Shown here: positions 47,052-63,878 of the stretch, in pieces
Layout of the letters: each line of letters opens with the position of its first letter
Position numbering within the stretch: the stretch's first letter is position 1
DNA from: Tubulanus polymorphus
Taxonomy: Eukaryota; Nemertea; Palaeonemertea; Tubulaniformes; Tubulanidae
Reading direction: 5' to 3'
Assembly (NCBI RefSeq): GCF_964204645.1
Contig: NC_134025.1
Coordinates: 682,001 to 746,000 of the forward strand
Length of the DNA stretch: 64,000 nt
The notes under the pieces: generated by a model
Told to the model about the DNA's origin: nothing
What the model saw: the letters and a program-made list of their open reading frames with translations, nothing else
Databases searched by the model: none
Position numbers and translations under genes: made by a program

Positions 47052-47164
47052 ATGTTTAAGAAGGTTGCTATGAAGAAGTTGCAGTTGACACGTAGTGTCA
47101 TGATGGTTTCTGGGATGAAGGAAAAGATGAAGGCGGAGACGGCAAGATCGGATACAGATTCTGT
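47052..47164 (+). CDS. Alternative first exon A of a gene extending right
   Basis: ATG to donor GTAAGT. Encodes 37 residues (MFKKVAMKKLQLTRSVMMVS, then GMKEKMKAETARSDTDS plus a split codon) and ends in phase 2. Lys/Met-rich, with no acceptor upstream. First of 13 exons with identical exit phase. Confidence 0.65.
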
Positions 47165-48690
47165 GTAAGTTTATCGTGTAGTTTATTTTACAGGTACTAA
47201 TATGTACTCAATAATTTGTCATCAGGTTTTTGAGTAGTAAAGTCATCTACTTATAACCTTTTGACTTTTCAGTATTGTCTTATGGTCAGTCACGTGTACC
47301 TAAGAAAAAGCTACAAAGTTAAGGTTTTTAGGTTTTTTATACCAATAATCTAAAACCGCTTGATAACAGTAATGATCGAATAAGTTTGAATGATTTCTAA
47401 TTTTTTTCAAACTTTATTTCTATTTTCATTTTTCAAATTTCTTAGTTTATGATATCACGGGTGATACCGCTGGTTAAAATGAGCTCGATGTCATTGTCAA
47501 TATAAAGTCCATAAATGATAGTTAGTTTTTAGTTTTTAACTAATATCGTTTTAACGACCAAAACACTAAAACCAGTTTTGTCATATATTTTGTTGTCAGA
47601 CTTTGTATTCTCACTCAGCGGGCTTCTCATTATTATTTTCCGTTTGAAACAGTTTTCACAATAAGCAGTCGTTATCATGTAATCTAATTTTAAAGCTACG
47701 CTGAATTTGAATAGCGATTTATAGATAATGTCGATTATAAATGAAAGCTTCCATACCATTGATATATATGGTTCTACCGCTGGTAAATATTAGTAATACC
47801 TCGTTATCTATATTTAAACTAAGACTGTAAATAAATAATAGAAATCGGTTTTATTTGCGTTGACAATTGACAAATATTTCTGTAACAACATGTGAAACGA
47901 ATAAGATATGTACTGTTGGATTTTCCCGAGGTGACATTCTGACAGATAATTGGTCCTTCAAACAACTGCCAATAAAATTTTATTTACTTAACCATGGAAA
48001 CATGTGAGGTTAATAGCCAGGACTCCCCACGCTAATTCAAACCCAGTGGTAGAACCCAGTGGTAGAACCAGCGGGTACAGTCCCAGTGGTAGATACGGAG
48101 TGTAAGGATATCCCCTCAGAGAGGCATTCAGACTGTGAGCTGAAAGATTTACGTTTTTTAAAGCCTATCAGTTACATATTGAAGATTATTTCCCCGATTA
48201 CACCTTTCTATCATATTTTCTTATCTTCCACTTTTGGAAATGGAAATTCCTTAGGAAGTTGGTGAAAAATTGTTGCTTGCCGGCTTATTCTTTAGTTCAC
48301 AGGTTAGGGTAAATTCTCTGCTGCAGGGCCGGGTTACAGGTAACCATGCTGACAGGTTACAGGTTCAGATTACATCGAAAACGCCGTTGCTATTTAAATT
48401 AATGAAATGTCAACACGATGTTTTACCATTTTATTCATCCTGTTTTTACGACTTGATCAGAGAGCAATAATTCATCATCAGACACGACATGAAACGATAT
48501 TAACATTAATAGTTTATTCCGGTTGTGGTTCATGGGTCTGTTCTGTTGAAGAGATGAATAGCAGCGTCAGCAACAGCAGCAGCAGCTACATCGATATAGA
48601 ACTGAAATTCTAGACGGGATCTTGAGGAACTTTTCGGTGACAAGTTTTTCGAAATGTGATTTTGAATGTATATGGAGTGTATTATAGTAT

Positions 48691-48772
48691 AATGGATGCA
48701 CTAGACCGTAGATTGTCGAGACCTTGTTCTCAGGATTTATTCAATACTTTTAGATCGAATACTACTTTAAGG
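48691..48772 (+). CDS. Alternative first exon B
   Basis: ATG to donor GTAAAT, phase 2. Encodes MDALDRRLSRPCSQDLFNTF then RSNTTL plus a split codon. It opens shortly before the large GA-rich repeat. Confidence 0.55.
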
Positions 48773-48848
48773 TAAATAATAGATTAACATCTTCATTATC
48801 ATTCTTCGCCTCTTCCTCACTATTATCTACTCTTATAGATATAGGTGA

Positions 48849-49515
48849 TAGGGAGAGGGAGAGGGAGAGGGAGGAGAGGGAGAGGGAGAGGGAGAGGGAG
48901 AGGGAGAGGGAGAGGGAGAGGGAGAGGGAGAGGGAGAGGGAGAGGGAGAGGGAGAGGGAGAGGGAGAGGGAGAGGGAGAGGGAGAGGGAGAGGGAGAGGG
49001 AGAGGGAGAGGGAGAGGGAGAGGGAGAGGGAGAGGGAGAGGGAGAGGGAGAGGGAGAGGGAGAGGGAGAGGGAGAGGGAGAGGGAGAGGGAGAGGGAGAG
49101 GGAGAGGGAGAGGGAGAGGGAGAGGGAGAGGGAGAGGGAGAGGGAGAGGGAGAGGGAGAGGGAGAGGGAGAGGGAGAGGGAGAGGGAGAGGGAGAGGGAG
49201 AGGGAGAGGGAGAGGGAGAGGGAGAGGGAGAGGGAGAGGGAGAGGGAGAGGGAGAGGGAGAGGGAGAGGGAGAGGGAGAGGGAGAGGGAGAGGGAGAGGG
49301 AGAGGGAGAGGGAGAGGGAGAGGGAGAGGGAGAGGGAGAGGGAGAGGGAGAGGGAGAGGGAGAGGGAGAGGGAGAGGGAGAGGGAGAGGGAGAGGGAGAG
49401 GGAGAGGGAGAGGGAGAGGGAGAGGGAGAGGGAGAGGGAGATAGGGAGAGGGAGAGGGAGAGGGAGAGGGAGATAGGGAGATAGGGAGATAGGGAGATAG
49501 GGAAATAGAGGGACT
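48849..49515. repeat. (GGGAGA)n hexanucleotide array, ~590-650 bp polypurine
   Basis: About 95 or more nearly perfect copies of GAGAGG with one GAGGAGAGG slip near 48872, ending in GATAGGGAGATAGG variants. The plus strand is nearly pure purine and mirror-symmetric, the kind of sequence that can form triplex (H-)DNA. The 199-codon Arg-Gly ORF is the repeat read through, not a gene. Confidence 0.97.
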
Positions 49516-50141
49516 GGGACCGTACCGATATAAATATACGATATCTTCTATTGTTTAGAAATAGCCGAAGATCCCACTACACCCGTCCGCCGTCCACACC
49601 GATCTTTAGAATTTCTGATACAATTCGAGTTTCAAATGAATATATAATAATCTGGTGCTATTGTTTTATATGAAGTCGATTTGACTTGATAAATAAGTAA
49701 TTTCTAAATTCGTCGTATCTATTCGATTCGACCATATACATTTATACGGAGAGAGTCGTAGTCAACTAGAGACGCCATCATTAATCACTAACAGGAATAC
49801 AAAACGTACATTTTCATCTTATCGTGTTTTAATTAAGTCATTACTATCAAATTACACTAAATGGTATAAACTCACGTGGATGCAATGGAATACATGGATA
49901 AAATGGCATATAGAAATTAGGCGTGATGAGGTCATGTGGGAATTGGCAAATCAGCTGAAAGTCAAATCGAAAATTGGAGCCGTCTGTTGCTATAGTTTTA
50001 GGAAGCCTTCATTGCACCTTGTGGAAACTTTGCAGTGTCTAAAATCGTTTTGATAACTTTGCATTTGAAAATTAATTATCAACTTTATTTAATTGTATTG
50101 GTGCGGTTTTCAATGCGGTTTTACGTAATGTAATAATCATT

Positions 50142-62173: not shown

Positions 62174-62350
62174 CAGCAGCAGCAGCAGCAGCAGCAGCAG
62201 CAGCAGCAGCAGCAGCAGCAGCAGCAGCAGCAGCAGCAGCAGCAGCAGCAGCAGCAGCAGCAGCAGCAGCAGCAGCAGCAGCAGCAGCAGCAGCAGCAGC
62301 AGCAGCAGCAGCAGCAGCAGCAGCAGCAGCAGCAGCAGCAGCAGCAGCAG
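62174..62350 (+). repeat. (CAG)59 uninterrupted trinucleotide repeat
   Basis: 177 bases of pure CAG, 59 copies, with no interruption. It lies between exons K and L and is not part of a supported coding region; the poly-Gln, poly-Leu and poly-Cys ORFs are readings of the repeat. Confidence 0.98.
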
Positions 62351-62709
62351 CATCCCCCCATCGGTCCTCTCCTCATGTTCCTACGTTAAATCCATTGTTA
62401 TGCTGATTTGTATTGTGTAAAGGTTATTAAACTAATGCAAGCACGATGGTTGCGGCACACGCATGCGGCACACACGTAGCACACGCAGCACACCGGGCGC
62501 ATGCAGCTTATATGTGTGTTCAATGCGTCATTGTAGTTTTACCTGTGAACATATGGACGTCTCTCATTAAAACTACAGTCAGTTGATGTCAGTCAACGCT
62601 ACAGTTAGTATCACTTGTAGAATAGCGTAGAGAGAAGGAGAGGTAGCTAGCTCGCGGGGCGGGGGTCTTCTAACCCCCCCCCAAAAAATACGGGCTCGCT
62701 TTATTCAAA

Positions 62710-62750
62710 ATGGTTTATACAAATAGGAATCATTTATCAGTCACTGCCGG
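62710..62750 (+). CDS. Alternative first exon L (shortest)
   Basis: ATG to donor GTGAGT, phase 2. Encodes only MVYTNRNHLSVTA plus a split Gly codon (GG). Short, so supported mainly by its place in the series, phase and good donor. Confidence 0.5.
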
Positions 62751-63771
62751 GTGAGTCATTAAAATAATTGTTGTAATTATTATTAATTAGTAATTGATTA
62801 ATTAATGTCTAGATATAATTCGATCTTTATTAAACGGTTATTCTTTATGACGACAATAACGTGCGTGCGTAGGTAAATACAGTTCGTGTGTTTATATTAT
62901 TTGGAATAAAAACAAGAGGATATTTTTAGAATTTTTTCAATTCGACAATTTAGGGAATATATTCAGATTTCACGTAAGTTTAAACATTACGGATTAACCG
63001 CGTTTTAATAAGAACATGATTTCTTTAAGTAATGTTTGTGTTATGTTGAGATATTGTATGGAGTATTAGAGATTGTGATATAGTAGCGCAGAAACATGTT
63101 TTATAAAATCAATAATTGTGTCCTATGTCTGTTGTACAGTTGTGGTTATGATTATATAGTACTATGTTTATATCAGTATGCAGACAGCAGCAGCAGTACT
63201 GCGGTGCCCTGTCGTATCATAACATCAAAACCCAATATATACAAATTTATAAGATTTAAAACGATATCTAAAATTAAGACGCAATATTTCAGACTCTCTC
63301 TAGAGACATGATGTAATCTTTTACATTTCTATACAGTGGTTTATATATCATTTCTCCACAACTGAGGGTATCGGCCTATTTAACTATTTGTTAGATATTT
63401 GATTAAGAATTTGTAAATAACATTCATAATATATCTAGATGAAATTCATAAACAGATATATGAATTTTAGATTTCAATATTTTTATCAATTAAAGCATTT
63501 TCATCATGAATTGCTCAGATTTCATCGACATCATTGATTAAATTCATACAAGAATTTTTGTGATCCTATAAATAAATTCCACGTATTTGTTGTCAAAGTT
63601 AATAATTTAGCAGTTAAAACCTGTTTAGGTAATAATTCTGTAAGTCAGATATTTTTCTCACGGTTCAGTCAGTGTCAGTCACACCGTTGAAAGTTGAAAA
63701 GTTTTATTCTGGTGATTTTATCAGAATCTCTGAGGATTAATTGATTTATATTTATTACTGGATCGAGTTTG

Positions 63772-63878
63772 ATGATGTCACGTGTTGGTACGGCAAAAAA
63801 ATGGACAACAAAAACAGCAGCCGGAGGCAAAACAGAACATCATAACATCTCATCTAAATGGGAAATGGCTTTAGCCGG
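63772..63878 (+). CDS. Alternative first exon M (tentative)
   Basis: ATGATG to a weak donor GG|GTTTGA, phase 2. Encodes MMSRVGTAKKWTTKTAAGGK, TEHHNISSKWEMALA plus a split Gly codon (GG), which ends like exon L (A-GG). The basic composition fits the series, but the donor is poor and the frame runs on 15 more codons to a stop at about 63924. Confidence 0.4.

Follow-up and report, generated by a model that had tools for sequence, protein, structure and literature searches.

The right-hand part of a 64,000-nucleotide stretch of the Tubulanus polymorphus genome (contig NC_134025.1, hereafter C1, positions C1:682001-746000; genome of 267.8 Mb in 77 contigs), referred to below as the window, carries on its plus strand a row of short open reading frames (ORFs) that each run from an ATG to a splice donor. 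The array probably belongs to one androglobin gene, whose 5' end would comprise some ten to thirteen alternative first exons, and not to a plectin or dystonin gene. In the arrangement that we propose, these first exons would follow one another along 12 to 17 kb upstream of androglobin exon 2, and each would contribute a start codon and a short tail that is basic and in most cases rich in Ser, Thr and Pro. Splicing after the second codon base would then connect any one of them to the common exon 2, with which the calpain-like part of the protein begins. The ORFs, their common phase, the open joins and the identity of the gene body can be read from the DNA itself; transcription of the exons, each from a separate promoter and start site, is predicted. 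The choice of exon may differ among ciliated cell types or sperm, and at the axoneme the tail would dock or regulate the protein, perhaps switched by proline-directed phosphorylation.

An earlier note on this DNA had described 13 short, basic ATG-to-donor ORFs at 47052..63878, all leaving in phase 2, and this description proved accurate. We found the ORFs again at 13 of 13 places on the plus strand, in every case with an in-frame stop upstream of the ATG and with more K+R than D+E in the encoded peptide. All 13 lengths equal 2 modulo 3, so that the donor cuts after the second codon base (phase 2), and the ORFs hold 13 to 166 full codons, each followed by two further nucleotides. A purine stands at position -3 of the first ATG in 11 of the 13, the exceptions being E7 (C) and E13 (T). 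The donor and acceptor scores given here come from matrices of general splice-site frequencies.

E2 to E11 are well supported as candidate first exons, as judged by the properties set out below. They are E2 (48692..48771; 26 codons, donor score 7.9), E3 (50142..50389; 82 codons, donor 5.3), E4 (51342..51499; 52 codons with the motifs TPRK and SPSR, donor 10.7), E5 (52827..52909; 27 codons, donor 8.0), E6 (53907..54010; 34 codons with TPRR, donor 7.4), E7 (54852..54949; 32 codons, donor 5.9), E8 (56175..56284; 36 codons with SPSK, donor 7.9), E9 (57538..57716; 59 codons, a second ATG at 57580, donor 5.8), E10 (58305..58804; 166 codons with TPRK, donor 13.0) and E11 (59193..59257; 21 codons, donor 5.0). 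E7 and E9 also carry a shorter, rival donor in phase 0, and other donors may be in use in these two. The remaining three, E1 (47052..47164; 37 codons, donor 5.0), E12 (62710..62750; 13 codons, donor 11.4) and E13 (63772..63878; 35 codons, donor only 2.9), are doubtful as first exons and may be chance ORFs. E1 fits the spacing of its neighbours and has a reversed codon periodicity; E12 is very short, lies off the spacing and reaches a combined K, R, S, T and P content (KRSTP) of 0.31; the second ATG of E13, at 63775, has A at -3.

The DNA to the right of the window, of which 149 kb was examined, contains the exon that the ORFs would share, as the earlier note had anticipated. This exon 2, common to all joins, lies at C1:746284-746389 (64284-64389 in window-based numbering), 284 bases past the edge, and is preceded by TATATTTACAG. 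Its first base is the single base that completes a codon split in phase 2. Exons 2 and 3 together (exon 3 at 70702-70803) contain no stop when entered after phase 2, compared with six after phase 0 and four after phase 1, and the joins of the array exons through exon 2 into exon 3 are open in 13 of 13 cases. No in-frame ATG occurs in the spliced exons 2 and 3; the spliced gene therefore needs a start from upstream.

The frames further downstream, which were joined by eye and not from complementary DNA, identify the gene to which exon 2 belongs. Pfam returned Androglobin_IV (7e-50, 168 bits), Androglobin_II (2e-38, 131 bits) and Androglobin_V (1e-23, 84 bits, with 105 of 275 positions covered), each against a cut-off of 27, together with the N-terminal calpain-like domain Peptidase_C2 (2e-10, 40.8 bits; cut-off 23.8), Globin (8e-6, 26.8 bits; cut-off 22) and FAP42_B2 (2e-6). 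An IQ (calmodulin-binding) motif in the body scored 15.6 bits, under its cut-off of 20.3. In the PDB a later stretch of the body gave a weak FAP42 match (3e-5) plus plant globins, and the start of the body gave two weak formamidase matches, which we took as chance. A 242-residue query from the body found one locus in the genome, with four exon matches, all at C1:778-782 kb. On this domain content the gene body is androglobin (ADGB), and it is single-copy in the genome. Its Pfam-backed pieces extend to about 100.3 kb (window-based), and the gene, judged by its frames, may continue to about 104.7 kb. A plakin body of the plectin, dystonin or MACF type was rejected, since Pfam identifies the body reached in phase as androglobin. 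The core of the earlier proposal, one gene with many first exons and a shared exon entered in phase 2, is supported by the shared androglobin exon and the 13 open joins; its figure of at least 13 first exons was too firm, and its suggestion of tandem duplication found no support (see below). Two repeats lie within androglobin introns beyond the window, a long minisatellite at C1:779.5-781.9 kb and a simple repeat coding for Asp at 765.3-766.1 kb.

The ORFs first described may have been picked because they fitted, and the array region was therefore scanned blind to phase. The scan covered the plus strand from 46.8 to 64.29 kb and took ATGs with a purine at -3 and at least 20 codons, with the best donor per ATG and a donor score of at least 4; peptides with over 55% of their length contributed by just two residues were excluded from the counts. 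The controls were 22 blocks, that is, both strands of 11 stretches of 17.5 kb from the window and the downstream DNA, real exons included. The unfiltered scan gave 1, 1 and 11 candidates in phases 0, 1 and 2, respectively (binomial probability for 11 of 13, 2e-4); ten of the 11 phase-2 candidates belong to the original set and one (54145) is new. With a KRSTP content of at least 0.35 the counts on the plus strand became 0/0/10 (0/0/8 at 40%), compared with 0/1/0 on the minus strand of the same region at 35%. In the 22 control blocks at 35% every phase averaged fewer than 0.9 candidates and the highest count was 3, which was also the highest count in 300 Markov sequences at 40%. Under looser settings the same filter left 1/0/9 (at least 12 codons; highest control count 6), 1/0/11 (20 codons, no purine filter; highest control count 5) and 2/0/11 (a third looser setting; highest control count 8). 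The number of candidates by itself is not unusual; the S/T/P/K/R-rich make-up joined with one phase is.

Two further properties point to coding exons arranged in a row. The guanine-plus-cytosine (GC) content at codon positions 1 and 2 minus that at position 3 was 0.161 for the pooled ORFs (607 codons), versus 0.014 (standard deviation 0.027) for a null of stop-free frames resampled from the array region. The corresponding P was printed as 0.0000 of 5000, and the same P was printed when E10 was left out (value 0.173); the periodicity is positive in 12 of the 13 exons, that of E1 being the one reversed. The spacings from E1 to E11 range from 767 to 1640 bases, about 1.2 kb, with a coefficient of variation of 0.24, and this regularity has P = 1.5e-5 against random placement and 1.1e-4 when a minimum spacing is imposed; for E2-E11 P is 2.5e-5. 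The array region also contains simple repeats, namely long GAGAGG and CAG runs at 48850-49500 and 62174-62350, neither of which entered the Markov null or the periodicity null.

A number of observations weigh against an array of first exons. Unfiltered, the controls averaged 2.4 to 2.8 candidates, and a single block, in androglobin's own region, has 8 in one phase; with at least 12 codons, or without the purine filter, the unfiltered controls climbed to 11 to 19, some of them in repeat-rich DNA. E9 was scored as phase 2 only since its stronger phase-0 donor (7.1) yields 19 codons, one under the limit, and in E7 the phase-0 donor outscores the phase-2 donor (6.4 versus 5.9). The composition cut-off and the spacing test were chosen after the exons had been seen, and the spacing of all 13 is less regular (P = 0.009). 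The periodicity leans much on codon position 2 (GC 0.54 in the array versus 0.38 in androglobin's own exons) and partly restates the composition, because codons for Ser, Thr, Pro and Arg increase the GC content there. Synonymous codon use did not separate the exons from the null ORFs (-3.0 bits over 607 codons), and the score was +25.5 bits with amino-acid use included; in the training set for these scores the piece 64283-64381 had been entered in the wrong frame, with its stop left out. The intron has an in-frame ATG 20 nucleotides before exon 2, at which translation could possibly start without splicing. The regions upstream of the exons share no common k-mer, and X-box-like sites (at most one mismatch) occur at 4 places in 18.3 kb, compared with 5 counted in 46 kb, which is uninformative, as are four strong forkhead-like words when taken as a signal of cilia promoters.

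In one rival explanation only a small number of the ORFs, or a single one, would belong to androglobin, and the others would be unused relics, or chance ORFs chosen for their fit. The weakness of E1, E12 and E13, the rival donors of E7 and E9, and unfiltered counts inside the control range all speak for it; the filtered counts, the single phase, the periodicity and the spacing of E2-E11 argue against it when combined, as do the 13 open joins, and we regard this explanation as rather unlikely.

We also think it unlikely that the exons are internal alternatives served by one promoter, with either a trans-spliced leader or an untranslated 5' exon common to all of them joined to an acceptor just before each ATG. 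Fair acceptor-like sites do occur at E4 (score 6.4, 2 nucleotides before the ATG) and at E6 (score 8.3, 5 nucleotides before it), and these two cast some doubt on the earlier remark that no obvious acceptor lies upstream. The remark survives for the starts as a group, since the 14 start positions scored no better than 217 control ATGs (mean 4.64 versus 5.18, p = 0.79), in a test of low power, as 16 internal androglobin exons scored anywhere from 2.7 to 13.4. Separate transcription starts would on this group test be mildly favoured over a shared leader. It is highly improbable that the exons are separate small genes, or part of a gene other than androglobin: E10 with its 166 codons is long enough for a piece of something else, but the nearest downstream androglobin exon has the needed entry phase and no in-frame ATG, E3 and E10, the two array ORFs scanned, lack Pfam domains (for E10 no match up to 0.1, nor in the PDB up to E = 5), and in the genome E3 has no second match up to E = 1 and E10 has further matches only at E 0.4 and 0.6.

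As to the origin of the array of first exons, tandem duplication was considered and found unsupported. Among 52 self-matches in the array DNA none touches an exon; 50 touch the CAG run, and two represent one pair of 37 bp to the right of E13. At the peptide level no clear pair emerged among the 78 possible ones, three pairs at z 3.4-3.8 (best 3.8; 60 shuffles each) not being notable. As no likeness was seen either among the exons or among their upstream regions, a tandem-duplication origin would have to be old, or the idea is wrong. The recurrent S/T-P-R-K motifs, previously taken as a hint of duplication, are indeed enriched (five S/T-P-x-K/R motifs versus a mean of 1.5, with 20 of 2000 shuffles reaching five), but they are located in only 4 of the 13 exons. 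The 37-bp pair is a direct repeat, 86% identical, with E13 on its left and exon 2 on its right (copies at 63910-63946 and, just past the edge, 64003-64039).

Few genes, to our knowledge, carry an array of a dozen first exons. The variable-first-exon arrangement is nevertheless already known, and androglobin as an instance of it appears to be new within the limits of our search: a limited literature search found no report of alternative first exons of androglobin, which does not prove absence. In plectin (PLEC), exon 2 is described as the splice partner of a dozen alternative first exons (PMC8468861), which is the same arrangement as here, with androglobin by Pfam as the body in our case. For plectin, isoform-specific transcripts and phenotypes have been described, whereas the present array is predicted from sequence. 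For UGT1, GCNT2 and the protocadherins, variable first exons are described that stand in tandem and are spliced to constant ones, with a distinct promoter before each variable exon in UGT1 and GCNT2 (PMC1885805). The variable exons of UGT1 and GCNT2 resemble each other, whereas we found no likeness among the array exons, which code for short tails; likewise UGT1 is described as having a conserved upstream motif, whereas no common upstream word was found in the array.

Androglobin is reported to be a ciliary protein, linked to FOXJ1 and RFX, required for male fertility in the mouse and regarded as single-copy. FAP42, with which the constant body of the array gene shows a weak resemblance besides its androglobin domains, is placed in the C1b arm in Chlamydomonas (PMC9113940), and Tetrahymena Adgb has been assigned to the C1b/C1f part of the central apparatus (PMC8175508). 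In the central apparatus of mouse sperm FAP42 is reported absent, and the words ADGB and androglobin do not occur in that paper (PMC12297659). According to Osterhof et al. 2026, androglobin is kept at one copy across eukaryotes and altered only by domain permutation and fusion (PMC13331133). If the array is used, it would represent a further route for androglobin change, in which many N-termini arise with gene number unaltered, and androglobin would give access to the question of how a single ciliary protein is adapted to motile cilia of different kinds. More tentatively, and with some doubt on our side, a gene regarded as strictly single-copy for more than a billion years may have evaded that constraint in this lineage, its promoters and N-terminal tails being multiplied instead of the gene, giving ten or more forms, one per kind of ciliated cell or stage of sperm, that would differ only in a phosphorylatable tail docking at the axoneme.

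The remainder of the window contains several other features. A suspected SINE (short interspersed nuclear element) resembling a transfer RNA (tRNA), at 53085-53290, was rejected as the search found only the element itself, and neither tRNA nor Rfam matches were obtained in the window. COX1 was sought in the assembly and not found. The array is adjoined on its left by two minus-strand frames (43940-45097 and 45535-45927) for seven-transmembrane receptors of the rhodopsin type, and two more lie at 13508-14698 and 15590-16714 on the plus strand. These single-frame sequences, which include a fragment, are closely similar by eye, and the two of the four that were scanned both match 7tm_1. Further frames match alpha-amylase (27575-28513, plus strand), an MFS transporter (31913-33403, minus strand) and FAM32A (38906-39412, minus strand), and a galaxin-like repeat at 10982-11407 (plus strand) remained under its Pfam cut-off. 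An open frame of 392 residues at 22992-24170 on the minus strand contains WDSGPRRGR-type repeats, and a minisatellite at 7282-8654 is open on both strands, with GLAVSMLGWHAG and ACQPSMLTARPP repeats.

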